This document shows, piece by piece, positions 3,543 through 64,000 of a stretch of DNA of 64,000 nt (the stretch's first letter is position 1; the number at the start of each line of letters is the position of its first letter). Where the stretch lies: the IMG/VR virus record IMGVR_UViG_3300042398_000969, positions 62,001-126,000 of that record. The stretch is one strand, 5' to 3'. Under the pieces are notes generated by a model. The model did no database searches and was not told the origin of the DNA. It saw only the letters and a list, made by a program, of their open reading frames with translations. The translations under genes and the position numbers were made by a program. The stretch is from a virus.

Positions 3543-3544
3543 AA

Positions 3545-4126: not shown

Positions 4127-4410
4127 TATGCAAAAGGGTTTGTATTGTATCCACCGTCAACATCAGGTTGGAATTGGGCGTCTCTTTCTTCCGCCGACAT
4201 TATATCTGCAGCTAAAACAATTTCTTCTTTTGTCCCTGATATTGTTTGACCCGCTGCCAATTTTTTCTGAACTTCCGCATTTACAATTTCTTCGATTGCA
4301 CTTTGACATCTTGCGTTAACAAAATTTTCAATCCAATCTTGTGGGTCTTTTGCTACCCATCTTAGAGCCTTTTCTTGTGCGTCTGTTAATGTTACTGTGT
4401 ATTGTGCCAT
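4126..4410 (-). CDS. Small conserved phage protein beside fibre genes
   Basis: A 94-aa, mostly helical acidic protein with the pattern YTVTLTDAQEKAL.W....QDWIENFVNARCQSAI. A paralogue of 88 aa lies at 17830-18096 with YTITLSETEKLAM and KSWIENVAHHRAGIAI. Small proteins of this type occur among fibre genes of marine and freshwater T4-like phages. No catalytic residues are apparent. Both copies sit between fibre or tip genes, so a role as a structural adaptor or assembly chaperone is plausible but unproven. Two overlapping TATAAATA sequences (plus-strand reading) lie 13 bp upstream of the start. Confidence 0.7.
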   Translation of the reverse strand: MAQYTVTLTDAQEKALRWVAKDPQDWIENFVNARCQSAIEEIVNAEVQKKLAAGQTISGTKEEIVLAADIMSAEERDAQFQPDVDGGYNTNPFA

Positions 4411-4423
4411 GTTTTTCTTTTTT

Positions 4424-4437
4424 TATAAATATAAATA
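4424..4437 (-). promoter_or_regulatory. Two overlapping TATTTATA motif copies
   Basis: On the coding (minus) strand this reads TATTTATATTTATA, ending 13 bp before the ATG at 4410. It is one of at least ten exact occurrences of TATTTATA in short gaps upstream of starts in this window. Function is unproven. Confidence 0.35.
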
Positions 4438-4439
4438 AT

Positions 4440-21086: not shown

Positions 21087-24000
21087 TTCTTCTTATTTTT
21101 ATTTTCTAATTTAGTAACTCTCTTGGTTAATTCTTTAATTCCCTCAACTAACAATGCATTTACTTTAGCATAGTCTAATAATTTAATTTCCTCTTCTTTA
21201 CCACCTAATAACATTGTTCTTTTAGAAATTAATTCGGGTTGTACTTCATAAACTTCATCAGCTAACATACCGATTTGTTTTGTTCTATCATCACTATACT
21301 CCTCTAACCAATTGAATGTATAACCATTTAATTTTTCAATCTTATCTAACGCACCTTCAATTCTAATTAAATCTGTTTTTAATTTCTTATCAGATGTTGT
21401 GTTGAAAGTATTTGCATCAACATCACCAGTAACAACCAATGAACCCGTGATTCCAATATTATAACTTGTGTTATAATATGAACCTGTTTGAACAAATAAT
21501 GATGTTGTACGAGGTCCACCCACTGTTATAGTTGCATTACCAGATGTTGGTGTTGCAAAATCAATTTGTGTTCTGTTAACAGAAACCGCAGTTATTTTTT
21601 GTGGTATTAATTGTTCGTCAGCACCATCATAAACATTTATTGTTACATATTTGTAACCAATGTTATGGTCAATAACCCACGAACCTGTTGCAGATGTTTG
21701 TGTGTGTAGATATCTATCAGCAGTGCTTGTTGATATACCTCCAACTGACACCAACGCGTATCCATATTCTGGTGTTGCGAATGTTACTTGTGTTGTGTTT
21801 GCATTTATTGATATAACATCGGCAGGTAACATCACCTTATTATTTGAACCATCATAAATTGTTACGTTAGGATAGTTGTAATTTAAGTTGTGTGTAATAT
21901 TCCATGTTGTGGAACCAGTTGTTTGTGTAAACAAGTATCTTGAACTGCCGACATTTGCACTTGATATATCTAATGAACCTGATATAACAACACTACCCGT
22001 TACAGATAAATTACCATTTATATTTTCGTTACCAACAAACGCGTTACTACCAGTAGTTGCATAACTTCCTGTTTTACTTTCCAATGAAGAAACTCTACCA
22101 TCATTACTTGATGTGTATGTATTAAATGAACTTGTTTGTAAAAATCCAAATGCACCTATTTGAGTGCTACTTGAAACAATGTCATTTGGTTTGTTTGCGA
22201 TATTATCCCAAGTTGTTTGTGTTATACTTCCGCTAAGAACATAACGTGTATCATATGAACCTGTTAATTGTTCACTACCACTTACAATGTTGTTAGGTAT
22301 TCCTGTTAATCCTGAATAAATAATTTGTGAACTTCCAGATACAATACCTGAAGGTATTCCTGTTAAACCACTATAAATAACTTGTATCGAACCAGATATA
22401 ACACCATCACTATCTAACTTACTCTTAATTGTTGTATTAATTGAAGAGGTGAATGAATTTAAACTTCCTGTTGATGTTTCTAAATTTACTAATCTACCAT
22501 CTTGATTGAAGTCTGTGGTTGCAATTGAAGAAGATAGTAAACCAATACTTGAACTTACTGAACTACTAAAAGTTGAATATCCTGTTGTTCCTGTTATATC
22601 AATTTGAGATGATCCTGAAACTAACGTTGGTCTATTAACTAAACCTAAAAAATCAAACGCTCCCGTTATTGAATTTGCAACCAAATCACCCGCAACTGTT
22701 ATTGTTGTTCCGGTTTCAGATATGATAGACACGTCAATATGATCTCCACCAACTGACTTTACAATTCTACCATTTATCAAGTTTGGTTCATCACCTAAAG
22801 AACCTGAATTTCTTGGCCCCGAAAGTAACATACCACCAGAATAAGAACTACCACTTGCATTTTGATAAACCCAATGGTTGTGTAAACTATCCCACGCTAA
22901 TGATGCTGTTGCATTTGAACTTCCACTATCATAAACTTTTAATCCTCCAAATCTTTCGGCGGGTTCAAATACATTTACACTTATGAATGAAGCACTTACA
23001 GCTAAATTTGATGAGGTTACATAAACAAGTGATGATGAACCTAATACTGTTAAATTTTGTGTAATTGTTAAACTACCTGTAACGGCATAGTTACCATTTA
23101 AACTTCTACTATTTACCCATACACTACCACTCTTAACCAATAAGTCACCATATGATGAATTGGTTGTGGTATCAACAAAATCGTGTGCTTCACCTAATTC
23201 CGAACCATTATCTATACGAACATATATTGAACCGTTATTTTGTTGAACTCTTAATACTTCACCAAGTCTAACACCGTGATTTGGTGCGGTTGGTGGTGTG
23301 GTGGTGAATGTACCATTAACACCTAAGAATAGTAATTGACCTGCGGTCATTCCATTGGTATTAACACCAAGTAAAACACCTTCAGTAATTACTAAACCAA
23401 AACCATCATTTGGAATATTTTCTGTTGCAATACCTAACGTATTTGCGGATTGACCTTCAGTTAATAGTGATGCCACACCTATTAATGGATTATCACCAAC
23501 CGAACCTACAATTCTTACAACAGTTCCCTTATTTATTTGGGCACCCGACATATTTTTACAATATACATCCGTTTGTAATGTTCTGAATGACATTGAGGAT
23601 GATGGTACAAGTTGTGAACCACTATACGCTTCTAATACATCTAAACGATTATCTATTGAACCAGATACTGTTGTATAAGATGATGTGAATGTATTAAAAT
23701 CACTTCTAATGCTACCACTGGTAGTTTCAAGTGAATCTAATCTACCATTTTGTGTATTATCAATTGAGGCAACGCTTGAACTTAAACTTCCTATAGAAGA
23801 ACTTAGTCCACTAGTTGTTGTTGCAACAGATGAACTAAATGTTGAATAACCTGTTGTACCCGTTAAGTCTACCTGAATTGATCCAGATATTAATCCACTC
23901 GGTTTGTTTGCAATATTATCCCAAGTTGTTTGTGTGATTGATCCACTTAACACATAACGAGTATCGTAAGAACCTGTTAATTGTTCACTACCACTAACAA

Positions 24001-24439: not shown

Positions 24440-26407
24440 TTAACAAGCGTATGAATTAATTACGTAACCAGATGAATCAATTTGTAGTGTTGTCCCAAAG
24501 GTTAATCCAAAGTCTCCATAATATAAACTGTTACCGTTAAATGGTGTTGTCATTCCGCTATTTGTATAGAATCTTGTTACCGATGTCCACACATTACTAT
24601 TCCCATAAACAGAGACAGTAAATGGTCCACCTAATCCATCACAATAATTTGGCGCGGTAGTACCGGTTGCACTAATCATATAGTTTGTACTAGCTGGTGT
24701 TGCTGTTGGCGTTGCCGTTGGTGATGGTACCGATGTTGCTGTTGGTGTTGGTGTTGCCGTTGGTACAATAGTTGGTGTAGGTGTAGGGGTTCTTGTTGGA
24801 GTAGGAGCTGGTGTTGCTGTTGGTGTCACAATTCCATTACCTAAAGCTCTATATAACACCTCAACTAACCATGTACCTGAACTCACGGTTGCATTTAATC
24901 TACCTGTACCAGAAACATTAAAACCAACAGGGTTTGTGTTACCCAAATCCATTGTTGTAGTTTCATTGAATGTTGCATCAGTACCATTCCAAGCACTCAT
25001 TATACTACCGGCTCTCATGTTAGTACCATTCTTAACAACATAGTCAAAGAATGCACCATCAAAAGAACTTAAATTAAAAATTTCTGTGTTACTTGATATT
25101 GTAACAGCTGTTGAACAAATCTTAGCATTATTAAGTGTTAAGCAACCATTGATTGTTTGACTACCAACAAATGTGTTAGACCCTGTGGTTGCATAACCTA
25201 AATTGGAAATCTGTGAACTACCAGTAATTAAACCTGATATTGACTGAGCCGATCCACTTAATATATGACCACCTCTAGATACACTAACATGACCACTAAC
25301 CGGCATGCTAAAATAAATTTTTATTTGATTTGCAGTTATAGATTCAATTCGATTAGGGAAAATTATATTTCTATTAGAATCCCAAACCGTTACATCTGGA
25401 TAATCTGTTCCTAAATTATGATTAACGGTCCACAAATTTGAATTTATAAATTCTTGTGTAGTTCCATTACCACCACCAAGAGAAGCAATAACAATACCTG
25501 TTTGTGGGCTTGGAAATATGATTTCAGCGAGATCTTCATCAATCGCTCTTATTTGACTTGGAATAACAACAAGACCGTTACTATCAAAAACTTGAAATAT
25601 TGGATATTGTTGTCCGGAATTATGAGCAAAACTCCATGTTGAGGCCGCACTTGTAACTTCTAAAGAACTATATGAACCTATTGCTGAACCACCTCCTCCA
25701 CCAGCGCCGGCATTTAACGCAAATGCTGCGGTAACAGCATATGATGCACTTAAGACCGTCATTGAACCAGTTTGTGATGTTAAAACAACACTTGAAGTAA
25801 AATTATTTAAAGTATTAATGGAACCGGTAATGGTGTCCATTCTGGTATTTAATGATGATGATAGGTTTGTAGTACTAATTTTTAGCTCTTTAACATAACC
25901 ATTACTATTTGTATCTGTAATTGACGTTGTAATCTCAATACCACCTAATGGTATAATTTCAAAAGCATCAGATCCAGTAGCACTTAATATTGGTGAACCA
26001 GAAACAAAAATATCTTTAAAATGTGAACCTATTGAAATAAATGCAGTTCCAGGAGTGTTTTCATTAACGTTTAATCCTGTACTATCGTCAAATTGTAATT
26101 TTGTGAATGTTTTGTTATATGTGTTACCACTAATATCCGAACCTGATATGTGAAATGGTACGTTTGTTAAACCAAGTGCACTACCACTAAATGCGGATGC
26201 TGTAATCGAACCTACTAATTGTAAAGACCCCGTATTAACCGTGTTTGTTGAGATTAATTCCTCAACTGATGGTCCGAGAGAACCTGATTTAGCCATATAA
26301 ACCTTACCATCGGTAGTGTTTAAAGCTAATTCACCTAATTGTAAATTTGAGTTAGTGGGTTTTTGACCGGATACACTACTCCTACGCAGTTTTACTATTT
26401 GTGCCAT
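24440..26407 (-). CDS. Tail fibre with virion-attachment N-terminus and Pro-Thr linker (655 aa)
   Basis: It begins MAQIVKLRRSSVSG..P and LQLGELALNTTDGKVYM, the classic short N-terminal attachment motif of many phage fibres, also related to the N-domain of the Bordetella phage tropism determinant. Two similar modules (WSFAHNSGQQYPIFQVFDSNG; WTVNHNLGTDYPDVTVWD) occupy the middle. Residues about 530-570 are a Pro-Thr-Ala linker, followed by an 80-residue cysteine-containing C-terminal domain (GYVINSYAC) that resembles the C-terminal domain of the protein at 53883-55067. This links the fibre region with the adhesin region at the right end. A purine-rich AGGAGAG lies 10 bp before the ATG. Confidence 0.8.
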   Translation of the reverse strand: MAQIVKLRRSSVSGQKPTNSNLQLGELALNTTDGKVYMAKSGSLGPSVEELISTNTVNTGSLQLVGSITASAFSGSALGLTNVPFHISGSDISGNTYNKTFTKLQFDDSTGLNVNENTPGTAFISIGSHFKDIFVSGSPILSATGSDAFEIIPLGGIEITTSITDTNSNGYVKELKISTTNLSSSLNTRMDTITGSINTLNNFTSSVVLTSQTGSMTVLSASYAVTAAFALNAGAGGGGGSAIGSYSSLEVTSAASTWSFAHNSGQQYPIFQVFDSNGLVVIPSQIRAIDEDLAEIIFPSPQTGIVIASLGGGNGTTQEFINSNLWTVNHNLGTDYPDVTVWDSNRNIIFPNRIESITANQIKIYFSMPVSGHVSVSRGGHILSGSAQSISGLITGSSQISNLGYATTGSNTFVGSQTINGCLTLNNAKICSTAVTISSNTEIFNLSSFDGAFFDYVVKNGTNMRAGSIMSAWNGTDATFNETTTMDLGNTNPVGFNVSGTGRLNATVSSGTWLVEVLYRALGNGIVTPTATPAPTPTRTPTPTPTIVPTATPTPTATSVPSPTATPTATPASTNYMISATGTTAPNYCDGLGGPFTVSVYGNSNVWTSVTRFYTNSGMTTPFNGNSLYYGDFGLTFGTTLQIDSSGYVINSYAC

Positions 26408-49788: not shown

Positions 49789-50730
49789 TTAATCTAATTG
49801 TATTTTATTTAAGTTTTCAAAATTTCCTTGTAAGTCCGCAATATCTTTATCTTCTGGCATTTTAACAACCCATACTTTAAAAAACAGTTTTCCGTTGTTT
49901 AATTTATGAAATAGTTTTTCAGCATCATTCCACGCATCACCATCTAATACTATAATTAATTCCTTTGCTTTATCATATAACTTAGAATATAAAAATTCAC
50001 TCATTACTTTACCTAATAGTGGTATTGAGTTTGGAACGAATATACTATCAAATGCCCCTTCAACCAAATAGATTGGTTTATCCCAATCAATCAAATATTC
50101 GTTAAAGATAATAATTTCTTTTTGAACATCTGGGTTCTTGTACTTCATTTTAGTTCTAGGTAGATATGATCTAGCAATAAAGTAATTTAACTTGTTCTCG
50201 GCATCATATGATGGTATAATAATTCTATTAGCATAATCACCCTCATATGCAAATCCAATATTATATCTAGTAAGCATCTCGTCAGTTATGTTTCTACTTC
50301 TGATGTAGTTATATGCTTGTTTATAATAATGTGTTAGCTTTAACCCTAGTGATGCTGTTGTAAATGACACAAATTCTTTTGGTAACCCCTTGAGAATCTT
50401 TGGTTTAGGTAATGTTGTATCAACCTCTTCAGGTCTCATTAATTCATAAAAATGAATTTGTTTCTTATTACCATATTTTTTAATAAGTCTGTATAATGTC
50501 CCTCTTGTGTTATGTGTTTCGCTACAAGACCAACATTTGTATACCCCAAGTTTGTAATTAATTTCTAGATTACCCTTACCATCACCCTCGTCTAAACCCT
50601 TGATTTCATGGGAACATACGGGACAATCAAAGGATATTTGTCCCTTACCATCGTTGTGCAGTTTGTAGTCTCCAAGAATGTCTTCAAGGATCTCAATAAT
50701 AGGTTCGAATTCGGTGTCAATTGTTGCCAT
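49789..50730 (-). CDS. DNA primase, DnaG-type with zinc finger and TOPRIM
   Basis: A 313-aa primase. A zinc finger uses CPVC at residues 36-39 and CWSC at 66-69. The TOPRIM core has the Glu of YLVEGAFDSI near residue 224 and the DxD of VLDGDAWNDA near 263-265. It synthesises RNA primers on the lagging strand. It resembles T4 gp61 / small DnaG-like phage primases, without a C-terminal helicase domain. A strong terminator precedes it, so it starts its own transcription unit that continues into the nuclease and SbcD-like genes. Confidence 0.9.
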   Translation of the reverse strand: MATIDTEFEPIIEILEDILGDYKLHNDGKGQISFDCPVCSHEIKGLDEGDGKGNLEINYKLGVYKCWSCSETHNTRGTLYRLIKKYGNKKQIHFYELMRPEEVDTTLPKPKILKGLPKEFVSFTTASLGLKLTHYYKQAYNYIRSRNITDEMLTRYNIGFAYEGDYANRIIIPSYDAENKLNYFIARSYLPRTKMKYKNPDVQKEIIIFNEYLIDWDKPIYLVEGAFDSIFVPNSIPLLGKVMSEFLYSKLYDKAKELIIVLDGDAWNDAEKLFHKLNNGKLFFKVWVVKMPEDKDIADLQGNFENLNKIQLD

Positions 50731-50767
50731 GGTTTAAATATAGATAAAATATTTGACAAAAAAAAAT

Positions 50768-50791
50768 CCCCAGAGACACCACCCTCTGGGG
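50768..50791 (-). terminator. Rho-independent terminator before the primase unit
   Basis: A perfect 8-bp GC-rich stem CCCCAGAG / CTCTGGGG, 8-nt loop, then a T9 tract on the minus strand. It closes the unit ending with the 67-aa gene and isolates the primase operon. Confidence 0.92.
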
Positions 50792-50860
50792 AACCAACCA
50801 AAATGCAGTTTTTCGCTACATTCCCGCCTACTTACTTAAATATAAGTAAATTATTTTTGG

Positions 50861-51064
50861 TTACGAAACATTAGTTGCCATATTTTTTTTCTTTACCTGA
50901 CCAACCGGATAATATGTTGTTTCACCTATTCTAATTGAATCAATTCTGTTACCTGTTTGTGGATTTAATATAATTGATTTCTTATTCACACTAGTATCAT
51001 AGATCACATCTTCTAATACAATTTTACCATCAGTCATTCTTTTAAATGTTTTTTGCTCTGTCAT
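50861..51064 (-). CDS. Small conserved hypothetical protein (67 aa)
   Basis: A 67-aa basic protein of short beta strands (GKIVLEDVIYD, KSIILNPQTG, IRIGETTYYPVGQVK). It has no known motif. It is the last gene before a strong terminator, 20 bp downstream of the RuvC-like gene. Function unknown. Confidence 0.6.
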   Translation of the reverse strand: MTEQKTFKRMTDGKIVLEDVIYDTSVNKKSIILNPQTGNRIDSIRIGETTYYPVGQVKKKNMATNVS

Positions 51065-51084
51065 TTTTTGTTTTTTAAATAAAT

Positions 51085-51687
51085 TTATTCTGTTTCTTTT
51101 AACATATTAATGTAACCAATCACACAACATGCAGCATCTGCCATGTCATAATTTTCTTTTTTAAGGGCTCCGGTTTTGCCATATAACCAATTAACATCCG
51201 GACAAACCGCATTTACGTGTTCCCAAATAACATGTTTTTTATCTATGTCTTTTGGGTATCCACCAAATAGAACATTGCGTCCCTTGTCATTTGAACCCAC
51301 TAAATCGGGAAATGCATATTTTCTTGAATTATATGTTGAGATGAATGTAGGAACAATACCTAGAATATCATAGACAGCTTTGCAGATCATTGTATTGTAA
51401 CGCAATAATGTGCCAACCGTATAAACGTTATTAGAGTTCAATAATGGCTCTTCAATAATAACCTTAACGATACCCATATCTCTGTATCCTTCTAGTTGTT
51501 TTTGGAAAGCAATCGCTTTTTTGATTAACTCTTCTAGTTTGTCTTCTGGTTGTGGTTTAATCTTTGGTGAAAAATGTGTTAATTCTAACAATTTCTTACC
51601 AGTTAAATCAAATAGAGCCCACCCAATAGTTTTGGTTGAAATATCCAAGCCTAATATCTTGGATTTGTTTTTAAATTTTACATCCAT
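51085..51687 (-). CDS. RuvC-like Holliday junction resolvase
   Basis: A 200-aa RNase H-fold endonuclease. ILGLDISTKTIGWALFD near residues 11-27 carries the first catalytic Asp (residue 15), VIIEEPLL near 77-84 the Glu, and YDMADAACCVIGY near 180-192 the C-terminal acidic residues. This is the DDE-type order of RuvC and of the viral RuvC-like resolvases. It would resolve branched DNA before packaging, taking the place of T4 gp49. No dimer partner is needed. Cotranscribed with the 712-aa virion gene upstream. Confidence 0.88.
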   Translation of the reverse strand: MDVKFKNKSKILGLDISTKTIGWALFDLTGKKLLELTHFSPKIKPQPEDKLEELIKKAIAFQKQLEGYRDMGIVKVIIEEPLLNSNNVYTVGTLLRYNTMICKAVYDILGIVPTFISTYNSRKYAFPDLVGSNDKGRNVLFGGYPKDIDKKHVIWEHVNAVCPDVNWLYGKTGALKKENYDMADAACCVIGYINMLKETE

Positions 51688-51726
51688 AAATCAATTATAT
51701 GGAAAAATAAAATTATTGTAAAGTCT

Positions 51727-53865
51727 TTAGAAGTCTAATCTAACAGAAAATACCTGATTTCCAATTCTTTGGATTGGTTTAGGACATTTAGCCATTACTA
51801 TGGGTTCCTTATTGTCATTTAATAAAGCCACTTCGGTAATTCTTTTTTGTTGTCCTGTAACATAAGTAGGGTTCTGTGTTGTAATAAATTGTGAAGATGG
51901 TAAGTTTACCATGAAATTTAACACCTGAACATCCGTTGCTCTTGTTAGTTTAATGCTACCTGGGAATGGTTGTTGATCACCAAATTGTGGCGATGTTGTT
52001 TGTGTTTTATCTGGTAAAGAACCTAAATATGTTTCAAGATTATATGTTGACGCACCATTTACCATATCGCCGGTAACAACAAATTGGTAACCACACATAT
52101 TTGTGTTAGAAATAAGATTTCCAACAGTATGGCCAGATATTTGTGATGTTAAATCAATTCGCTTCCAGTTGTTTGGTGAAGGTTGTGATCCAGTTGTTGT
52201 TACTTGAACTAACGCAAAAAACTTATTAGCAGTAAATCCAGTAAATTGAGAAGATGAACTTAAAAATTTAAATTCACCAGTATTAAACTTGAAGCCAATA
52301 TTTGAATTGGTTGATCCTGTTATCTCACCATAATAGTTACAGTGCATGCCGGTGATACCAGTTGTTGATGTATTTTGGAACATATATGTTACCCAAGCTG
52401 TTTGTCCTGTTGTGATTACCGGATCTAAATCATAGAAAGTTGGTAAGTCCAAAGGTACAGTACTAAATCTTGGTGCAGGTAATGTCCATTTTCTATTTGT
52501 TTTATATTCTAATGCCGCAACTAATTCTTGATCATCAAAAACAATAATTTTTTTGTCAACAAAAACTTTACCGACATTAACGCCTTGTTGATCAACTAGG
52601 TATCTAAACTTAAGGTTGTTTGAGTTTGGTTTAACGTTTAAAGCGGATGATACATAATAATCAGTTGTCCCCATAGTAAATACTGCTCCAATTGTAGAGC
52701 CTGTGTTTCTATGATATAATAAAAATGGGATATAAACTTCGAAGTATTCCGAGTCAGAAATTGGTTCTCCATATAATGTTTCGTTATCAATTGTACCATG
52801 AGCAATATAGTCATCATACTTATAAAATCTTTCTGGATCATTTACAATATCACCTAATTCAGAATAATGAATAACAGCAATTGCTCTTTGGTTAGCTGGT
52901 TTAACATCAACTTTTTCACCAAATGTGTTTGTATATGATGTTGGGTTAGTTATTGTACCACCAGTTGTATTTGTAAATGTTTGGCCAGTATTTGATGTAT
53001 AACCAAGATATTCTTTTAATGATGCAAATTGAGATCCAGTATAACCTGAAATATATTCATCATCATCTGTTGTGTCTAAACCAGCTGGTTCTTGTGTCCA
53101 AACTAGTTCTAATTGCCAAGGATCATGTTGTGCTAAATTATCTGGTTGGAGTGGTGAACAAACATCAGCAACTTCGGTGTCTTGTGGGTAATCTAATTTA
53201 CATTTATTACATACCACACGAACAATTCCGGTATTTTGTGCAGAAAAATCTGGCATATTTCTATCTAAAGTGATTGTTTGCCCACTAATACTTACAATTT
53301 TATAAACTAAACTTTGTGAATTTCCGCTTATTGTCTTTTCTGAACCAACAAAATCTGATTTAAAAACTAAAGTAATATATTGACAATTTGAAAAATCATT
53401 TGTTGTTGCTCCCGTCATTAATGATGTTAATAAATCTTTACCACCATTAACTCTATTAAGAAGTATTGCACCAGATACACATTCAACTGTTGATCCAGTA
53501 CATGGATCAGCAACATATGGAATAAATTCTGAAACAAATCCCGCTGGTCCCATTGGGTTTTTTAATGTGTCAACATATGATTGTTGTGCAGCATTACCAA
53601 AATTAATTGTCTCATTAGCATTAATTAAATATGGGTACTTAACATGTTGATCACCATCAACAGGAGATAATACTCTTTGATGTGGTGCTCTCGTGCCACC
53701 CGTTATTGCTCCTGTAAATCCACTGAATTTTGTGTTATAGTCAAATTCAGAATCTCCGATCTGAAAATATTTTATAATAAAATTACCTTCAGCAATAGAT
53801 TGTCTACCTCTTCTTGTTATTCTTGCGGATAAAAACTCTGAATTATTACTATTTAAAAAGCTCAT
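51727..53865 (-). CDS. Large virion protein, tail/baseplate-associated (712 aa)
   Basis: The N-terminus (MSFLNSNNSEFLSARITRRGRQSIAEG) has the 'ARIT.KGR..IAEG' pattern seen at the starts of tail or baseplate proteins in several giant phages. The protein is beta-rich with several aromatic loops, and its end, ITEVALLNDNKEPIVMAKCPKPI followed by a strand VFSVRLDF, resembles the carboxyl-terminal 'EIALYNxNGxxLAYA' domain of tail-collar fibre proteins. It contains a CNKCKLDYP...C cysteine group of unknown role. It lies between the adhesin cluster and the resolvase. A structural role is likely; the exact position on the virion is not known. Confidence 0.65.
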   Translation of the reverse strand: MSFLNSNNSEFLSARITRRGRQSIAEGNFIIKYFQIGDSEFDYNTKFSGFTGAITGGTRAPHQRVLSPVDGDQHVKYPYLINANETINFGNAAQQSYVDTLKNPMGPAGFVSEFIPYVADPCTGSTVECVSGAILLNRVNGGKDLLTSLMTGATTNDFSNCQYITLVFKSDFVGSEKTISGNSQSLVYKIVSISGQTITLDRNMPDFSAQNTGIVRVVCNKCKLDYPQDTEVADVCSPLQPDNLAQHDPWQLELVWTQEPAGLDTTDDDEYISGYTGSQFASLKEYLGYTSNTGQTFTNTTGGTITNPTSYTNTFGEKVDVKPANQRAIAVIHYSELGDIVNDPERFYKYDDYIAHGTIDNETLYGEPISDSEYFEVYIPFLLYHRNTGSTIGAVFTMGTTDYYVSSALNVKPNSNNLKFRYLVDQQGVNVGKVFVDKKIIVFDDQELVAALEYKTNRKWTLPAPRFSTVPLDLPTFYDLDPVITTGQTAWVTYMFQNTSTTGITGMHCNYYGEITGSTNSNIGFKFNTGEFKFLSSSSQFTGFTANKFFALVQVTTTGSQPSPNNWKRIDLTSQISGHTVGNLISNTNMCGYQFVVTGDMVNGASTYNLETYLGSLPDKTQTTSPQFGDQQPFPGSIKLTRATDVQVLNFMVNLPSSQFITTQNPTYVTGQQKRITEVALLNDNKEPIVMAKCPKPIQRIGNQVFSVRLDF

Positions 53866-53882
53866 ATTTTATATCATTAATT

Positions 53883-55067
53883 TTATGTTAAACCACCACT
53901 ACCACTACCACCGCCTCCGGCACAATTTCTTAATGCTGTTGATATTATATATCCATCGGTATCAATTTGTATTGCGTTAAATTGTCCATCATTTAGTGTG
54001 TTTATATTGTCTGTTGCTACAGCATACCATAAATTAAAACCATTAAATGGTTCATAATTTGTATTCGCATACACCCTAGTATATGAAATTGCAGCAGGTA
54101 GTGTTGCTCCAGTACTGAACCATCCTGCTGATGTCTGATAGCCAGGGCTAGAACAGAATGTATCTATAGATGATTGACCACCGCTCCTAAAATACCCATA
54201 AAGTGGTGGTGATGTTGGGGTTGGCGTTGGTGTAGCCGTTGGTGATGGAACCCCAAGACATTGAATACCAACCTCCCAGAAATCATTTACTTCATTAGGC
54301 GGAGCTAAGGCCGGAGCTGTTAATACATCAATATAATATGTTTTAGTATTATCATATGTGATTGATAATGTTATTGGCCCCATTGCTGTTGGATACCAAT
54401 AATCCTGTGAATTATATCCAGATGAATTACCAAACCATCCCGTACTTTCAAGAACTGTTAAAGATGTTCTAATTGAAATATTATTTGGTCTATCATTTGC
54501 AGTACATGTGAAATTAATTATTGAACCATTTGCTACTCCGGCAAAGTTTAATTGAATGTCATCATAGTTGTTCATTGTTGAGCCAGTGAACGTTCCCGAA
54601 ACTGTAGAACCACAACCAGGTAATGCTGTTGGTGTTGGTGTTGCTGTCGGTGTTATTGGTGTAGCAGTTGGTGTCACCGGTGTTGCTGTCGGTGTTACTG
54701 GTGTAGCAGTTGGTGGTACTGGTGTAGCAGTTGGTGGTACTGGTGTGGCAGTTGGACCAGGACCTGCTGTTGCTGTCGGTGCTGGAGTTGCTGTAGGTGC
54801 TGGTGTTGCTGTTGGACCAGGGAACCCAGTAACTTGTATATTTTGAGTGGTACCACTACAAGCCCCAACAGGTTCTACTTTAAGCCACGTTTTACCATCA
54901 GTTATTCCTGTTATTGTATAAGTTGGGTTAAATAATGACACTGCCACATTACCATAATTTGTTAAAGCAATGCAATTGGTATTGTTACCTTCACATTCAT
55001 AGAATTTAACAGATGTTATACCTAAACCTATTGTTGGACCTAATCTTACTGATGCTATATATGCCAT
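53883..55067 (-). CDS. Adhesin with Pro-Thr linkers (394 aa)
   Basis: The plan is an N-terminal beta domain (MAYIASVRLGPTIGLGITSV...QNIQVTGFPG), a first Pro-Thr-Ala linker of about 70 residues, a middle domain with the jelly-roll-like pattern GTFTGSTMNNYDDIQLNF, a second short Pro-Thr linker and a C-terminal domain (GYFRSGGQSSIDTFC, YEPFNGFNLWYAV, IQIDTDGYIISTALRNC) that is related to the end of the fibre at 24440-26407. It ends in a Gly/Ser tail. Middle domains of this kind resemble PPC-like domains of bacterial secreted proteins. Host-surface binding is inferred. Confidence 0.65.
   Translation of the reverse strand: MAYIASVRLGPTIGLGITSVKFYECEGNNTNCIALTNYGNVAVSLFNPTYTITGITDGKTWLKVEPVGACSGTTQNIQVTGFPGPTATPAPTATPAPTATAGPGPTATPVPPTATPVPPTATPVTPTATPVTPTATPITPTATPTPTALPGCGSTVSGTFTGSTMNNYDDIQLNFAGVANGSIINFTCTANDRPNNISIRTSLTVLESTGWFGNSSGYNSQDYWYPTAMGPITLSITYDNTKTYYIDVLTAPALAPPNEVNDFWEVGIQCLGVPSPTATPTPTPTSPPLYGYFRSGGQSSIDTFCSSPGYQTSAGWFSTGATLPAAISYTRVYANTNYEPFNGFNLWYAVATDNINTLNDGQFNAIQIDTDGYIISTALRNCAGGGGSGSGGLT
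54600..54840 (-). repeat. Pro-Thr-Ala linker repeats (GTTGGTGTT-type DNA repeat)
   Basis: Coding-strand repeats of CCAACTGCTACACCAGTA-like 18-bp units encode a TPTATPV pattern. The DNA is a degenerate tandem repeat and prone to length change. Confidence 0.65.
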
Positions 55068-55071
55068 ATGT

Positions 55072-55079
55072 TATAAATA
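55072..55079 (-). promoter_or_regulatory. TATTTATA motif 4 bp before an adhesin start
   Basis: Coding-strand AATATTTATAACA just before the ATG at 55067. Confidence 0.35.
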
Positions 55080-55091
55080 TTCTTATTTAAT

Positions 55092-55736
55092 TTAACGATT
55101 AGTGTTATTTAGAAAATAGTTCTTATCGTTTGACAAAAACTCATTAACGCTAAATGTTGTTATTGTTTCCGAGTTTGGGTTATTTTGAACTTTATTTATC
55201 ATTTTTTCGGTATGTCTACCGTTTATACCATAATTTCCTTGAACCAAGTAATCACCCAATAAAATAAAATTTGGATCATTTCTTAAATCCTTCTCTTCAA
55301 AATCATCATTAATTTGTTTTTTACTATAACCAATTTTTTTATGAATTATATTATCAGGTTTAAACTCGTTTTCAACCATTTCGTCATATATTAAATTTGA
55401 TGGCCTTTGTTCATACCACGTAACATCGACTAAAAGATTATATTCATTTAACCCCATATTCATTATAAAATTTAAATCATTTTCAATTTTTAAATCTGTA
55501 TGGTTTCCACCAACAATACACATATCCAAATCCCACGTGTTGTTAAAGTCAAATAAAACTCCACCCATTAAGTACATATCATATTCTTTTATAATCATTG
55601 ATTTAACATATAAATTAAATAAAAAATCATAAACTTTTTGATATGACGGTCTTGTCCAATGACTTGTTGTTGTTACAACCCCTCTTTGAAAAAAAATACT
55701 ATCTTTTAAATTTGCTACTTTATTAAATGTGCTCAT
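55092..55736 (-). CDS. Nucleotidyltransferase-like protein (214 aa)
   Basis: The core YLMGGVLFDFNNTWDLDMCIVGG near residues 55-77 fits the nucleotidyltransferase signature hGG..(9-13)..DhDh, with Asp69 and Asp71 as metal ligands, and LLVDVTWYE near 101-109 can supply the third Asp (104). The distance between motifs is normal for minimal nucleotidyltransferases. The rest of the protein is helical and ends with a polar Asn-rich tail. It is set between two adhesin genes on both sides, an odd place for an enzyme. It could modify a host molecule, act as a toxin, or be a virion-borne enzyme; none is proven. Confidence 0.55.
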   Translation of the reverse strand: MSTFNKVANLKDSIFFQRGVVTTTSHWTRPSYQKVYDFLFNLYVKSMIIKEYDMYLMGGVLFDFNNTWDLDMCIVGGNHTDLKIENDLNFIMNMGLNEYNLLVDVTWYEQRPSNLIYDEMVENEFKPDNIIHKKIGYSKKQINDDFEEKDLRNDPNFILLGDYLVQGNYGINGRHTEKMINKVQNNPNSETITTFSVNEFLSNDKNYFLNNTNR

Positions 55737-55747
55737 AATTTATATTT

Positions 55748-57280
55748 TTAACCACTATATCCTCCGGAACCTCCTCCAGAACCTCCTCCAGAACCTCCAC
55801 TGTCTGGAACTGGTGTTGCAGTTGGACTCGGTGTTGATCCATCGCAAGGTGAACATCCTGTATCTAATATAGTAAATACCGGTGTACTATAAACAACCGA
55901 TTTATAGTTATCTTTTGCAATTACCTTCCAACAGAATGTGTTTAAGAACGAATCGTTAACTCTAAACGTACCATTAATTCCAATTGTTGGTAATGTATCG
56001 GACCATACTGTTACACTATAGGATGCATTATCACATCTCACACCATCCATTTTATATTTTTTTGGCGTTGCATTACAACTTGAACAATCACCATATCCTT
56101 GGAACATTGGTTGACCTAAAACAAACGGTCCAGAATCTGTAATTTGATATCCATCAAAACCTTCACTTGGGTCTGTAATTACAAATTGTGGTCCTAGATT
56201 TTTATTAATGGTCATACATCTTGGATTCCCAGCAACAACGCCGTTTTCATATAATTGTATTCCATATGTTCTACCGGTGGTCATACCTAATAGCGAATAT
56301 GCTATAATATTTTCACCCGTATCACAAGTTACACCGCTATATCCAGTTATTGTGAAACCAGTAAATGGCGGGTCACAAGCAGCACAAGGATTTGCACCAG
56401 CTACTGGTGAAACACCATCTAAATTATATGTATAACCCGTAACATATTGTGTTTGGACTGCAATGATAGATAAACATGAATTACCAACTTGATATACCGT
56501 TCCTTCTGTTAACTGTGTTGAACTTCTTGCTATTGCCACGCCACCATAATTTTGACCAAAACCACAAGGATCTAGTGGATTTGAAAGTACGTATGATGTC
56601 GATGCTGGATTTTGCATTGATAATGTTCCAATATTTGCTAAAGTATCACAACCAGGTATTTGTATTGGTGCACTAAATCCAGTTGCAGTTATTGCTGTAT
56701 ATGAATATCTCATATCATTACAGTCGCCCATTGCGTAATAATAATATGATGGATCAATAACAACATTTGTTGTTGGTGTTGGTGTTGGTGTTGATGTTGG
56801 TATCACTGTCGTTGCTGTTGGTGTAGGAGTTGCTGTTGGGTTAGGTGTTGGCGTTGGGCCAATAACAACAGTCGCTGAACCACCAGAGAAATCGCAATTA
56901 GGTGTAGGGCTAGGTGTTGGACTAGGTGTTGGTGTTGGTGCAATATATACTGCGCTACCAACATTAGGAAAATAACAATAATTTATACAGTTATCATAAA
57001 CTTCAGCCTCATTCGTATATATATTTTCTATAACGTAATTAACATCACCGGTATCTCCAGTATATGTTAATTTAAACCAATATTGTGTATCAAAAGATGC
57101 GTCTGTAAAAATAATAGGATTTGTGTTATAGTCTCTACTTGAACTATTAGGATACAAAGAACCATAAGACGTGTATCCTGTTGCTATAACAGAGTCATCA
57201 CCAGCAGTTTTACCTGTTTTATATGATAAGGTAAAAGCTTTAGGTGAATTAATTCCATATAATCTTATGTTTAATCCCAT
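55748..57280 (-). CDS. Adhesin with Pro-Thr linkers (510 aa)
   Basis: An N-terminal beta domain of 110 residues (MGLNIRLYGINSPKAFTLSY, FWFKLTYTGDTGD-like) is followed by Pro-Thr-Ser linkers that surround a Cys-containing cassette NCDFSGGSATVV, then by beta-rich Cys-containing domains (AMGDCNDMRYSYTA, GPFVLGQPMFQGYGDCSSC, CWKVIAKDNYKSVVYSTPVF), a short second linker and a Gly/Ser tail. Cys pairs suggest disulfide-stabilised domains outside the cell. Same overall plan as the neighbouring adhesins. Confidence 0.65.
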   Translation of the reverse strand: MGLNIRLYGINSPKAFTLSYKTGKTAGDDSVIATGYTSYGSLYPNSSSRDYNTNPIIFTDASFDTQYWFKLTYTGDTGDVNYVIENIYTNEAEVYDNCINYCYFPNVGSAVYIAPTPTPSPTPSPTPNCDFSGGSATVVIGPTPTPNPTATPTPTATTVIPTSTPTPTPTTNVVIDPSYYYYAMGDCNDMRYSYTAITATGFSAPIQIPGCDTLANIGTLSMQNPASTSYVLSNPLDPCGFGQNYGGVAIARSSTQLTEGTVYQVGNSCLSIIAVQTQYVTGYTYNLDGVSPVAGANPCAACDPPFTGFTITGYSGVTCDTGENIIAYSLLGMTTGRTYGIQLYENGVVAGNPRCMTINKNLGPQFVITDPSEGFDGYQITDSGPFVLGQPMFQGYGDCSSCNATPKKYKMDGVRCDNASYSVTVWSDTLPTIGINGTFRVNDSFLNTFCWKVIAKDNYKSVVYSTPVFTILDTGCSPCDGSTPSPTATPVPDSGGSGGGSGGGSGGYSG

Positions 57281-57285
57281 ATTAC

Positions 57286-57293
57286 TATAAATA
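57286..57293 (-). promoter_or_regulatory. TATTTATA motif 5 bp before an adhesin start
   Basis: Coding-strand TGTATTTATAGTA just before the ATG at 57280, downstream of the terminator at 57316. Confidence 0.4.
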
Positions 57294-57315
57294 CAATAAT
57301 TAAAAATTTAAATAA

Positions 57316-57341
57316 AAAACCCCTTTAAATAAAGGGGTTTT
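57316..57341 (-). terminator. Rho-independent terminator
   Basis: A perfect 11-bp stem AAAACCCCTTT / AAAGGGGTTTT with a 4-nt loop, followed by a T-rich stretch on the minus strand. It ends the unit closing with the 191-aa adhesin. Confidence 0.9.
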
Positions 57342-57373
57342 AATAATATTAAATTTAACCTTTTTTTAATTTA

Positions 57374-57949
57374 TTAGACTATCACACCGCCACCACAAGT
57401 GTTATCTACATTACATTGGTTCATTACTGACTGAGCAACACCATTTAAACCTATTTGGAACATATATCCAGAAGTGTGATAATACCAACCAGCACTTGCA
57501 TAATTTGAAGGTGATGCTATATTTTGTGTATACATAGTACCCTGTAATGATGTTAGATTATTTAAATTAGCTTCAGTTATATAGAATGTAGTATATGATT
57601 GTAAGTTATTGTAACCTGAACACGCATTAGTACAGTCTTGGTATGGACCTTGTGCTTGCATTCCCGTTAATGCTACACCAGACTCTGTTGCTGTTGGCGT
57701 AGGTGTTGGTGTCGGAGGAGCCACAGACCAAGACTGAGTTGTTGAGCATGTTCCAGTACTAGCTATTGTACCACCCGTTAATGTTTCAAGCGTTGTGTTT
57801 ATTGTATAACCTGTTGTTAATTGTGATTTGGTAACACCAGTGGCCAACCAGTGTGCTGCTCCAGCGCTAGTTGTACCTGAAATATTAAAAGGACCAGCAA
57901 CAAATGTTGCGCCTGTATAACTTGGACTTAGTGTGAATGTAATTTGCAT
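57374..57949 (-). CDS. Small adhesin with Pro-Thr linker (191 aa)
   Basis: The N-terminal 80 residues (VAGPFNISGTTSAGAAHWLATGVTKSQLTTGY) match the start of the 1375-aa adhesin (GPYNVYYDQ...[13 protein letters not shown]), so both share an attachment domain. A short [12 protein letters not shown] linker leads to a 95-residue C-terminal domain (CTNACSGYNNLQSYTTFYITEANL, GYMFQIGLNGVAQSVMNQC) similar in its ending to those of the proteins at 53883 and 24440. It is a minimal member of the adhesin set. A terminator follows. Confidence 0.65.
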   Translation of the reverse strand: MQITFTLSPSYTGATFVAGPFNISGTTSAGAAHWLATGVTKSQLTTGYTINTTLETLTGGTIASTGTCSTTQSWSVAPPTPTPTPTATESGVALTGMQAQGPYQDCTNACSGYNNLQSYTTFYITEANLNNLTSLQGTMYTQNIASPSNYASAGWYYHTSGYMFQIGLNGVAQSVMNQCNVDNTCGGGVIV

Positions 57950-57965
57950 TGTTCTTCTTTTTTAA

Positions 57966-57973
57966 TATAAATA
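57966..57973 (-). promoter_or_regulatory. TATTTATA motif upstream of the small adhesin
   Basis: Coding-strand GATATTTATATTA, 16 bp before the ATG at 57949. Confidence 0.4.
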
Positions 57974-57994
57974 TCTGTTTATTTTGTTTTTTTT

Positions 57995-60900
57995 TTATAC
58001 TTGTGCACCACCGCCGCCACCAAGACAATCATTACATGATGTCCATACACTTGAATATGATCCATCCGTTAAATGTGTCGCCTCTTGATCACATGTAGTA
58101 CCAACATAATAATCTACTTGTAAGCACACATTATTTACTTTAACAGCTTTAGTTCCACCTAAGAATGCACTAACCAATAAATCTGGTGATGTCATATATC
58201 CAACTAGATTATTTGAACAATTAATTACTTGATATTTGTAATATGATGCTGGTTCAGGTATCGCTGTTATACCACTGTTTACCACACAACCATTTGCGTC
58301 TGTAACCTCTAAACAATACCCATATGTTGTTAAATTATCTACATTGAATGTTGTACCAAAAGTTGATGTGCTATATGTTCCAACTAAAGTTCCACCACAT
58401 GTTGTATATGGTGAACTTGTGTCAGCATATAATCTATATGTTTTAGGGAATACACCACCACTTGATGTTAATTCTAAAACACCTGAGCTTGGTGAAGCAC
58501 ATGTTGGGTATGTAATAATTGTTAACGACGCAGATTGTGCCGTTGGTTGGCTAATTCCTTGACCATATGATGCCACACAATTATTACCATCTTTAACAGA
58601 TATTGTATACGTATCTGATATTAAATTATTAAATATCTTTGGAGGATAATAATAATTGTAACCATCAATTGAAACTTGTCTAGGTGATGTTCCGCCAACT
58701 AATGTTGTCACTTCAATAAAACCATTTGAACCACCATAACAAGAAACATTACCAACATCCACTATTCCAAGCGCTGGTGTAGATACTGTTAAGTTATATG
58801 ATACAATTGCAAAACAACTATTATTATCTAAAACTTGTATTGAATGATTACCACTTGGTAAGTTATTAAAAGTATGTGAAAATTTAAATGCTGTTAACGC
58901 TGAATATGAACCACCATTACTACTAATACAAAATTTATATCCTGAAGCATTTGGTGTTCCACCGCTACCCTGAATTGTTAATGATCCATTTGTTGAATTG
59001 TAACAAGTTGGAAAAGATGCACTAGTAATAGTGCCAGCCACCGCTGACGGTATAGTTACGGTTGCTGAATATGATTGTTCACAACCGGCACCATCTTTAA
59101 TAAAAATACTATATGTACCGCCACCTAATGATGAATAAGTTACTGGTAAGTTTGCATATGTTCCACCAGAGCCAAGTTTTGCTTGATAACCAGACCCAGA
59201 TCCTCCAGATCCACTAGAAACACCAATGGTGCCTGTTCCCGCATTACAATCTGGATTTGTAACAGATATTGTTGCATTCGGAGCTGATTTGGATAATAAC
59301 ACATAATCTATGGCCACACAACCATTACTGTCTTTAGCATATAAAGTATATAATCCTGTACCTAAACTACTAAAAGTTCCGCTGGCTTGATAATTTGAAC
59401 CATCTCTTGAATATGTAAAACCACCCACACCGCCTGAACCTGAAGCTGTTATTGAACCATTTGTACCATTCCAACATGTTGGATTTGTACCAGATACTGA
59501 TATAGATACCGCACTTGGTTGTGTTACTGTTTGATTATATGTTTGAACACAACCCGCGCCGTCTTTAATATATATTGTGTATGTTCCCGCAGATAATGGG
59601 TTGGAGTATGTAACTGGTAAATTTGCATAAGTTCCACCTACTCCGTTTTTAGCTTGGTATCCTGAACCACTTCCTCCAGTTCCATCACTAACCGTGATTG
59701 CACCTGTTCCACCACCATTACAAGCTACATTTGTAATTGAAAAAGTTGCATTAGGTGCTGATTTAGATAAAGTTGTTGCCGCTGAAGTTACACAGTCATT
59801 TGCATCCTTAATATAAATTGTTTTAGTCCCAACGGTTTGCCCAGTAAATGTTGCACTAGATTGATATGTTAAACCATCTGAAGAATATGTGTATGGTGAT
59901 GTACCACCTGTAGGAGATGCTGTAACGCTACCATCACTACCATTATAACATGTTGGATTTGTTGATGAAGATATTGAACCAAAAAGTTGTGTTGGCTCTG
60001 TTATTGTTACAGAATATGTTCTAGAACAAGCAGATTGATCAATAACAGTTACTGTGTATGTTCCAGCAGTTGGTACACCAAACGTTGCTGGTAAATTCTG
60101 ATATTGAAATGCACCATAATTTACTTTTGCTTGATATGTTCCACCGTTACCACCACTACCATTTGAAATTGTTATTGAACCGCCTCCATTTTGATAACAT
60201 GGTAAATTTGTTTGTGAAATAGTTGCACTTACTTGTGTTTTATTTAAACCGGTTGTATTTGTTCTAATACATCCACTAGCATCTTTAACATATGTGGTAT
60301 ATGTACCATTTGTTAAACCTGTAAATGTTAAACCAGATTGATAATTTGAACCATCTATTGAATATGTATATGGCGAAACACCACCACTTACACTAGATAA
60401 TGTTATTGAACCGTTTGAATTACCATTACAAGTTGGTTCTGTACCTGTAGCAGTGAAACTAATAATTGCAGGTTCTGTTATCGTTAATGATGTTAATTGA
60501 CCAACTTCATTATTTGAATCTTTAACATATAATGAATATGTTTGTGCTGTTAAACCTGTAAATACGTTACTTGATTGATAGGTAGTACCATTTATTGAAT
60601 ATGTATAACTACCTGAACCACCACTTGGACTAGTTATTGTTATTGTACCATTAGATCCTCCATTACATGTAACATTTGTTGAAGATCTAGATGCTGTTAT
60701 AACAACATTGGTTATATTGATAGTTATAACCACATCAAAATATAAACCTAAAGCATCAGTTGATCTAACTTTAATTAGATATGTACTTTTTGTTTCATAA
60801 TCAAATACTACTTTAGATTTTAAAACATTTCCAGCAATAGTAAAACTAGTATAATCTGGATATGATGAAGTATCTACAAATGAATATGTAAAAGTATCAC

Positions 60901-62122
60901 CCGCATCAGGATCTGCTGTTGAAAAAGTACCAATTGTTGTACCAGTTGCAACATTTTCAGATATTGAAGATGATGATAAATCAATTCCTGTTGGAGCCTC
61001 ATTAACACTAGTTACGGTAACTGAAACAAGACCATCATATGTTAATCCACCAGCATCTGTTGTTCTTATATTTAATAGATACGAACTTTTTGTTTCAACA
61101 TCGAAAACTTCTTTTGATGTTAATTGACCGCCAGAACTTAAATTAAAACTATTATTGTCTGGATATGAACCAGTATTAACAAATGAATATGTAAATGTAT
61201 CACCGGCATCTGGATCTAACGTTGATAGTGTACCAGCGTTTGTACCAATTCCACTATTCTCAGGTATTGTGCCAGATATGCTAATACCAAATGGTGCTTC
61301 ATTTACGTTATCAATATAAATTGTAAATTGTTTATCAAAGAATTGACCAACACTATCGGTAGTACGAATTGCCACTGTATATGAAGTTCCTGTTTCATAG
61401 TTAAATAATATTGAGTTAACTAAAGTATTACCACTAGTAGTGAAAGGTGCAGAATTTACTATAGAATATGTATGGGCATCATTACTATCACTTGACGCTG
61501 TTGCTAAATAACCAATCACCGTACCAATAGCTGAATTTTCGTTTATTCTATCATAACTTAATGAAAGATCTGTTGGTGCATAATTAACTGTTGTATCAAT
61601 TAAAAATAAACAATTAGGTGTTGAAGTTGGACTCGGTGTTGGCGTCGCTGTTGATGTCGGTGATGGTGTTGGTGTAGGTGTGGCGGTTGAACTCGGTGTT
61701 GGAGTTGGTGTTGCTGTTATAATATTTGTATCTATTCCAAAATCACAATTAGGTGTTGGAGTAGGACTAGGTGTAGGACTAGGACTTGGAGTTGGACTTG
61801 GAGTTGGACTTGGTGATGGACTTGGAGTTGGTGTTGGACTCGTTGTTGGAGTTGGTGTAGGTAATATAGTTTCATCAATATTTGATTGACATTCTGCAAT
61901 AACCCTAGCATTTGTATTGTATACAATTATTTTAGTTGCACTATCTGGTACACTAACGTGTAAACCTAAATTTGATATTAATTCAGTGCGTGTAACACCA
62001 CTAGCAAGAAATGATGTATCAAAATTGGTTGCAAGATTTGCAGCGTTAACTTGGTCATAATAAACATTATAAGGACCCGCGTCAGTACCAGAAACAATCT
62101 TTACATAAAACTTCTTTGCCAT
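57995..62122 (-). CDS. Giant adhesin with cadherin-like and SprB repeats (1375 aa)
   Basis: The N-terminal 80 residues are the attachment domain shared with the 191-aa adhesin. Pro-Thr-Ser linkers with two Cys cassettes ([23 protein letters not shown]) occupy about residues 88-175. Residues about 175-485 hold three cadherin-like repeats ([45 protein letters not shown]). About ten SprB-type repeats follow to about 1285, each with C.GGSNGxIT...GGxxxYTYSxDGxxY...F..L..GTYTxYVKDxxGC. The end is a small Cys-containing domain and a GGGGG tail. SprB repeats occur in gliding-motility and cell-surface adhesins of flavobacteria, so this looks like a captured host module. Calcium binding by the DPDAGD loops is likely. 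Confidence 0.8.
58267..60664 (-). repeat. About ten SprB-type repeats in DNA
   Basis: The coding region for the SprB-type array, about 240 bp per unit and diverged between units. Limits are approximate. Confidence 0.7.
60667..61600 (-). repeat. Three cadherin-like repeats in DNA
   Basis: Approximate limits of the three cadherin-like units of about 100 codons; the second and third are most alike ([14 protein letters not shown] and [14 protein letters not shown]). Confidence 0.65.
61600..61861 (-). repeat. Pro-Thr linker repeats in the 1375-aa adhesin
   Basis: A short copy of the same linker-plus-cassette plan as at 62895-63905, with two cassettes. Confidence 0.65.
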
Positions 62123-62129
62123 CTATAAT

Positions 62130-62408
62130 TTATTTTCCGCAACCACAATCTGATTCATTATTTGTTGTGATTAACGATTTTGTTACACTATTAAAATAGT
62201 TTTTATTATTTTCAATGAAATCATTCGCTTTCTCCATTAATAACTCATTTACTTGATCATTGATATAGCTAATGTACATCTCATCATTTAAAGTAAATAG
62301 TTCTCTAACCATAACTTTAACACCATTAATTGTAAATAAATCATTTATATCAATGGTATAACCGTCATTTGTGTATGTTAAAATTTTATTTGTTATTATT
62401 ACTTCCAT
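62130..62408 (-). CDS. Small protein with Cys-rich end (92 aa)
   Basis: An alpha/beta protein (IDINDLFTINGVKVMVRELFTL, SYINDQVNELLMEKANDFIEN) with the sequence SDCGCGK at its end. It lies between two giant adhesin genes with gaps of one and seven bases. An adaptor or assembly role is possible. Function unknown. Confidence 0.6.
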   Translation of the reverse strand: MEVIITNKILTYTNDGYTIDINDLFTINGVKVMVRELFTLNDEMYISYINDQVNELLMEKANDFIENNKNYFNSVTKSLITTNNESDCGCGK

Positions 62409-62409
62409 A

Positions 62410-64000
62410 TTAAACTACTTGACCTGTACAAGGATTTATTGTTAAGAAATTATTGTTTGGACAACCACTATAAATTGTTTCATTATTAAGTTTTAACGTA
62501 ACCCAGGTTACGTTAGTGTGACATTGTCCATTTCCAAAACCAAGATTTACATTTATTGGTGTTGCACAAACTAATGCAAAACTTATATTACCACCAGTTG
62601 ATGATGCTGCAATATCTTGTGCTTGTTGCGTTGTTAGTGTTAATGAGTTATATCTAGCATTACCACTAGTAACCCCAGGAGGATAATTAAATTGATCATT
62701 TGACCCACCAGTGTTACTTAAATAAACTGTACCTATATTAATATTATTACCTCTTAAATAAAAAGTTGCAGCATTACATGTGTGTCCACCAGGACAAGGT
62801 CCTAATGTTGGGCTATATTGAACAATAAATTCCATATTAGCCAAACAGTTTACTACTTCAGTTAATTCAGGTGTAATTGTTGTATCTAAAGCGCAATCAA
62901 TAGTTGCTGTAGGTGTTGGACTTGGAGTTGGTGTTGGACTCGTTGTTGGAGTCGGTGACGGTGATGGGCTAGGACTAGGCGTTGGCGTTGGTGTAGCCGT
63001 TATAATATTAGTATCAACACCAAAATCACAATTCTCGGTAGGAGATGGTGTTGGTGTTGGTGTCGCTGTTGCTGTTGGGCTCGGCGTTGGGCTAGGAGTT
63101 GGTGTTGGGCTTGTTGTTGGAGTTGGCGTTGCTGTTATTATATTAGTATCAATACCAAAGTCACAATTAGGTGTTGGGCTAGGTGTTGGAGTTGGTGTAC
63201 TAGTTGGTGTTGAGCTTGGTGTTGGTGTTGGACTAGGACTTGGGCTAGGTGTTGGGGTTGGTGTGGCAGTAATAATATTTGTATCAATACCGAAATCGCA
63301 ATTAGGTGTTGGACTCGGTGTTGGAGTTGGTGTACTAGTTGGTGTTGAGCTTGGTGTTGGACTCGGTGTTGGTGTAGGTGTAGCTGTAATAATATTTACA
63401 CCAACGTTAATATCACAATTAGGGGTTGGACTTGGGCTCGGAGTTGGACTAGGACTAGGTGTTGGGCTCGTTGTTGGTGTTGGTGTTGCTGTAATAACAT
63501 TAACTCCCATTCCAAAGTCACAATTAGGTGTAGGGCTTGGAGTTGGTGTAGGACTAGTTGTTGGTGTTGGCGTTGCTGTTATAATAATAACACCAACGTT
63601 AATATCACAATTAGGGGTTGGGCTTGGAGTCGGTGTTGGTGTAGCTGTAATAATATTTACACCCACACCAAATGTACAATCATTGGTCGGTGTAGGAGTT
63701 GGTGTTGGTGTGGCAGTAATAACATTTGATGTTACTTGAAAAGTACAATCAGATGTTGGCGTTGGTGTTGGGGTTGGCGTTGCTGTAACAACATTAGTAT
63801 TAACACCAAAATTACAATTTGCTGTTGGACTTGGTGTTGGTGTAGGTGTGGCAGTTGGACTTGTTGTTGGTGTTGGGGTTGGTGTTGCGGTTGGTAATGG
63901 ACAGCTACCCAAATTAAGATTTATTGATGTAACACTACTTGTCCCATTAATTGTCCATCCAGTATTTGGTGAATCACTTGTTGTTGTATTTCTAGGTTCT
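62410..64000 (-). CDS. Adhesin with tandem Pro-Thr / Cys-cassette array, 5' end outside window
   Basis: The frame is open to the window edge: before the TTG at 63912 it reads [22 protein letters not shown], so the gene begins outside. About residues 1-330 of the visible part are Pro-Thr-Ser linkers interrupted by nine short cassettes of the form (N/D)C(D/T/N)(F/I)...N(I/V)(I/V)TA, each with one Cys. A C-terminal domain of 160 residues ([48 protein letters not shown]) with paired Cys residues ends the protein. It has the same logic as the neighbouring adhesins but an unusually long linker array. Function: extended virion spike or adhesin, inferred. Confidence 0.7.
62895..63905 (-). repeat. Minisatellite-like array of Pro-Thr linkers and Cys cassettes
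   Basis: About 1 kb of degenerate tandem repeats; GTTGGTGTTGG-type units (plus-strand reading) alternate with about nine cassette units near 63720, 63650, 63580, 63490, 63400, 63270, 63140 and 63000. Repeats of this type are prone to slippage. Confidence 0.75.

Follow-up and report, generated by a model that had tools for sequence, protein, structure and literature searches.

A cadherin and SprB repeat protein as a probable virion fibre of an uncultured phage

A minus-strand gene in an IMG/VR virus record encodes a 1375-residue protein that is probably a long, modular virion fibre of a contractile-tailed Bacteroidota phage, with an N-terminal anchor, a stalk of cadherin and SprB domains, and a C-terminal binding tip. 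The gene has an ATG start and lies in the window, by which we mean the whole 64,000-nucleotide stretch analyzed (bases 62001-126000 of the 169,422-base record). From the N to the C terminus, the protein comprises an 84-residue domain, a Pro/Thr linker, three cadherin domains, ten SprB domains, an 81-residue domain, and a Gly-rich tail. We infer that the product is likely a virion protein, one that would attach through its N terminus and bind a receptor through its C terminus. Given the phage-type anchor and the fast-changing tip, the protein most likely helps the particle to reach and hold its host.

Table 1. Features of the gene and its neighbours (window coordinates)
Feature	Coordinates	Strand	Basis
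Whole gene, probable phage fibre/adhesin, stalk of cadherin and SprB domains	57995..62122	-	ORF; Pfam and PHROG; four full-length orthologues
N-terminal domain, residues 1-84, proposed virion anchor	61871..62122	-	39 viral loci; 0/80 bacterial loci; pLDDT ~80
Pro/Thr/Ser-rich linker, residues 85-173, predicted flexible hinge	61604..61870	-	Sequence; pLDDT; similar linkers in neighbours
Cadherin unit 1, residues 177-274	61301..61594	-	Unit profile; AlphaFold, Foldseek
Cadherin unit 2, residues 271-374, calcium-site-like motifs	61001..61312	-	Pfam; motif listing
Cadherin unit 3, residues 371-474	60701..61012	-	Unit profile; motif listing
Ten SprB units, Ig-like, residues 477-1294	58241..60694	-	Pfam; unit boundaries and alignment; model, Foldseek to GhpA
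C-terminal domain, residues 1295-1375, with Gly-rich tail, proposed receptor-binding tip	57998..58240	-	Low identity in most pairs; replaced in L063, L066
92-residue neighbour, kept beside the gene in group I phages	62130..62408	-	ORF; relatives
Pro/Thr-linker protein, previous cassette gene, extends beyond window end	62410..63999	-	Relatives, cassette order
191-residue Pro/Thr-linker protein, next gene	57374..57949	-	ORF
510-residue Pro/Thr-linker protein, same cassette	55748..57280	-	Cassette comparison
394-residue Pro/Thr-linker protein, same cassette	53883..55067	-	Cassette comparison
712-residue conserved protein, marks end of variable cassette	51727..53865	-	38 viral loci; following gene order conserved

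Pfam searches place the protein in both repeat families. The SprB family (PF13573) is matched with E = 3.3e-40 in seven separately significant stretches (135.8 bits, against a curated cut-off of 28), and the cadherin family (PF00028) with E = 6.1e-17 in two stretches (62.3 bits, cut-off 28.8). Profiles built from the units themselves resolve three cadherin units over residues 177-474 and exactly ten SprB units, well outside what chance would give. The original prediction, which described three cadherin-like units and about ten SprB-type repeats, was therefore accurate, and the repeats fall in the two expected families rather than in an unrelated Ig-like one. In the unit alignment, SprB units 3, 5, and 7 stand apart as a second type, and most units carry a pair of cysteines. 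Calcium-site-like motifs are retained in the cadherin units; those of the second are PEN, DPD, DVE, DAGG, and NVNEAP.

Structure prediction, proposed earlier as a check, agrees with these assignments. An AlphaFold model of residues 1-480 contains three confident β-sandwiches at the cadherin units, which match a protocadherin in Foldseek (1.8e-16); a search against solved structures has cadherins as its best matches for these units, over residues ≈217-468 and with E values down to 2e-49. The model of residues 400-1375 is a chain of Ig-like sandwiches with a mean pLDDT of 75 and a pTM of 0.29, values at which the SprB domain fold is usable and the overall shape of the stalk is not predicted. Among solved structures it best matches the neck of grappling hook protein A (GhpA) from Aureispira (E = 8e-27 along most of the modeled chain, 18% identity), and the SprB-like GhpA is also the best solved structure found with a one-unit SprB profile (6e-14).

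The ends of the protein are of another kind. The N-terminal domain, modeled as folded and β-rich (pLDDT ≈80), was found in 39 viral loci, where the parts that follow it vary: ten SprB units with three or six cadherins, four to six SprB units, one or two SprB units, or no SprB at all. It is absent from all 80 of the best bacterial SprB loci, and a second copy was not found elsewhere in the virus record. Comparison with GenBank phages, solved structures, and PHROGs gave no match of known function for this domain and nothing useful for the C-terminal domain. Within the linker, residues 90-169 have pLDDT values below 50 and are predicted to be disordered. A match of the protein to NCBIfam TIGR04526 (E = 0.0058) was treated as compositional because it covers the Pro/Thr linker region and falls far below the cut-off. 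Pro/Thr linkers recur across many late proteins of the window (53883-63999, and also 24440-26407), with their units in tandem repeat.

Members of the family are known from uncultured phages alone. Four orthologues of 1372-1373 residues keep the layout of three cadherin and ten SprB units, their SprB parts being 70-77% identical. The members of a second group have ten SprB units and three or six cadherins, and those of a third have 14-15 SprB units and three or six cadherins, are ≈40% identical over the SprB part, and are encoded in the same neighbourhood. Across the relatives, the stalk ranges from 2 to 15 SprB and from 0 to 6 cadherin units, and groups I and II hold ten SprB units despite their divergence.

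A single C-terminal domain is common to proteins with 2, 4, 6, or 10 SprB units. This domain is usually the fastest-changing part of the protein, and in two otherwise alignable pairs it has been replaced: the bodies of L070 and L066 are 78% identical and their tips 16% (replaced in L066), and those of L063 and L080 are 62% identical with tips at 21% (replaced in L063). In four more pairs, three from group I and one from group III, tip identity is at or below that of virtually every other alignment window. The tip does not stand out in all pairs, however: in the comparison of the 1375-residue protein with L058 or L061, ≈20% of the body windows equal it in divergence. By sequence comparison, then, a putative attachment domain that is conserved and a tip that is exchangeable or variable, the combination by which a receptor-binding fibre may be recognized, are seen in most but not all pairs. 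Separately, near 5000-6243 in L186-L188, we noticed a protein in syntenic position that combines a Pro/Thr linker of great length with what look like two SprB units and this same tip; it begins far upstream.

A conserved anchor, an adjustable stalk, and a changing tip form the pattern expected of a fibre. In the arrangement that we propose, the N-terminal domain would dock on the particle, most likely at the baseplate or tail, and the Pro/Thr linker would serve as a hinge. Calcium probably stiffens the three cadherin domains, which together with the ten Ig-like SprB domains would form a long stalk, and the C-terminal domain at its far end, judging from its swapping and rapid change, may be the receptor-binding tip. 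The stalk would give reach and possibly a weak stickiness, letting the tip meet a surface target beyond the host polysaccharide. The long stalk suggested originally is thereby supported as a reading. The accompanying suggestion of a receptor mimic found no evidence; stalk length varies on a tip that is shared and changes quickly, which argues for repeats that serve chiefly as a spacer.

The record is that of a T4-like virus, a large contractile-tailed phage with a probable Bacteroidota host. Its tail sheath and tube genes lie at the record end and are followed by homologues of baseplate wedge proteins (gp25-like, 1.6e-16; gp6-like, 6.7e-18), then by a gene for a 1617-residue protein that ends in a distal domain behind a Pro/Thr linker of the same kind, and then by the cassette that holds this gene, all on one strand. 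The gene thus lies within the tail/baseplate module, a location by which receptor-binding fibres are recognized. A terminator-like stem (57341-57316) follows the 191-residue gene; promoter-like sites were set aside, being consensus matches only. With the conserved 712-residue protein as a marker, we compared the locus across 38 viral loci. Some relatives encode SprB10 proteins there and others SprB5 or SprB4 proteins, and in many more the locus holds different Pro/Thr-linked proteins of ≈1200-1900 residues. Such varied occupants at one locus identify it as a site where surface proteins are exchanged.

Where the SprB repeats came from was addressed by comparing the ten units with those of other phage groups and with 1622 bacterial units drawn from the 80 best bacterial loci. 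For all ten, units of other phage groups give higher scores than any bacterial unit does. Among 90 bacterial SprB ORFs, a cadherin stands beside SprB in one and Pro/Thr runs in none, and GC3 in the gene is low, at 10.9%, and close to that of its structural neighbours. The unit scores, the rarity of the cadherin-SprB combination, and the GC3 led us to reject a recent capture of a whole host gene. Phage-closer units, a combination that is rare in bacteria, and phage-type ends instead mark an old chimera rebuilt by phages, the present protein having been put together within phages. The repeats themselves are most plausibly of Bacteroidota origin, because their bacterial relatives are Bacteroidota: nearly all of the best 80 bacterial loci are in records whose titles name Bacteroidota groups, and one title reads only "uncultured bacterium". 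The same titles support the host group predicted originally. Any such transfer would be an old event whose direction is unproved, and the units would since have been inherited and reshuffled within phages. The earlier idea of a captured host adhesion module therefore finds partial support: the repeats are shared with bacteria and may have an ancient host origin, but the gene is not one captured from a host.

The least likely account of the protein, and a very improbable one, is that it is exported to the surface of the infected cell and alters the host, for instance by superinfection exclusion, as a bacterial SprB protein might be. Such proteins do seem to exist in phages. LR756502.1, a 642-kb uncultured phage, encodes a 1670-residue SprB protein (L017:13843-18855, corresponding to 514378-519390) with a signal-peptide-like start, 13 SprB stretches, a PKD domain, and a T9SS type B domain (2.4e-13), and this protein is likely a phage-encoded T9SS substrate. 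Set against the fibre family, it indicates that SprB repeats have at least two uses among phages. The 1375-residue protein looks different. By a simple hydropathy measure, its highest 10-residue value near the N terminus is 0.64, and the corresponding peak is at most 1.51 in 13 phage proteins, whereas it exceeds 1.8 in 93% of 55 bacterial SprB proteins. A T9SS sorting domain (TIGR04183, TIGR04131, or type C) had no match in it at E ≤ 0.01, in the same search that detected the domain in the LR756502.1 protein, and was not found in six phage relatives either; among complete bacterial SprB proteins, at least 20 out of 23 have one. T9SS secretion was rejected on these grounds: neither the sorting domain nor the signal peptide that would be expected of an SprB-type gliding adhesin is apparent in the sequence.

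Other explanations keep the protein on the virion and assign its parts differently. It is unlikely, in our judgment, that the SprB and cadherin repeats themselves adhere, binding polysaccharide or the host surface and so retaining the virion in biofilm or close to hosts, much as the Ig-like Hoc and BACON/PKD proteins act in mucus. Gliding bacteria have SprB and RemA as adhesins on the cell surface (PMC11205867), and displayed phage Ig-like proteins mediate adherence (PMC13370021). The constancy of ten units across groups I and II, which a pure spacer does not require, also speaks for such a role, but the stalk otherwise varies widely while the tip is retained, and a known ligand of the SprB repeat itself was not found. 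We consider it quite unlikely that the protein decorates the capsid, in the manner of Hoc or the T5 decoration protein, rather than forming a tail or baseplate fibre. The protein matches PHROG 26672, which is filed under head and packaging and counts against a tail fibre, and the SprB unit profile has weak matches to Ig-like phage decoration proteins (E = 0.003-0.012); the gene, however, follows the baseplate genes beside a baseplate-region protein with the same type of linker, and the fast-changing, replaceable end fits a tip. Highly doubtful is a functional mimicry in which virion SprB repeats pair with the moving SprB adhesins of the host, or share their targets, so that the gliding machinery carries particles to the site of infection.

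Several known systems resemble the proposed fibre in part. SprB adhesins (Flavobacterium johnsoniae SprB and its relatives, PF13573) share the repeat itself and its tandem arrays, with ≈30-39% identity to bacterial arrays, but many of them have more repeats, and unlike them the phage protein has neither a signal peptide nor a T9SS domain and does have cadherins, a Pro/Thr linker, and domains of phage type at both ends. GhpA (PDB 9flp and others) is the T9SS-secreted heptameric hook with which a predatory cell attaches to prey flagella (PMC11205867), and its solved SprB-like domains, the best match found, lie in a mechanical stalk. Its chain, however, has 5898 residues, the match is a remote one, and there is no evidence of a heptamer for the phage protein. 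T4 Hoc, the BACON/PKD adhesins of gut phages, and cadherin-like proteins of Caulobacter phages likewise have repeated β-sandwich domains near structural genes, and the Caulobacter phage cadherins match residues ≈185-455 at 33-37%; these proteins belong to other repeat families, with no SprB repeats reported. Bacteroidota phages have modular adhesins that mediate adherence, and adhesins of the Ig-like type are established in phages (PMC13370021).

SprB-annotated phage proteins are already present in databases. SprB-like stretches occur in A0A6J5LD72 and A0A6J5LDA4 of UniProt ("SprB repeat," uncultured Caudovirales phage) and in PHROG 26672. Cellulophaga phage Nekkels gp50, annotated as virion structural, also has such a stretch but is a weak match with no Pfam SprB hit. 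In the open literature (most subscription papers lay outside the scope), no account of virion proteins with SprB repeats came up, nor any paper on these database entries. A repeat of Bacteroidota gliding adhesins and predatory hooks thus appears to have been reused as a virion fibre stalk in several uncultured phage groups, at a locus that exchanges whole adhesins, and the contrast with the secreted-type protein of LR756502.1 separates two phage uses of it. The phage anchor and tip domains could serve as markers for such fibres and for predicting Bacteroidota hosts of uncultured viruses.

Some further genes of the record drew our attention. At 2949-5033 of the window, three similar proteins of ≈195 residues are C1q/TNF-like (GRYTAPxxGxYxF) and lie downstream of a 1366-residue fibre-like protein. 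Outside the window, a paralogous run of Cys-rich genes (record bases ≈50236-59017; CCHHP and PCCIS motifs), radical SAM/SPASM-like, stands beside several SGNH-like genes. At record bases 19597-21369, also outside the window, a gene of this myovirus record has the signal-peptide start typical of Bacteroidota (MRKTITMLSLMLALLFTTTMSFGQ) and looks outer-membrane-barrel-like; a role in superinfection exclusion is possible.
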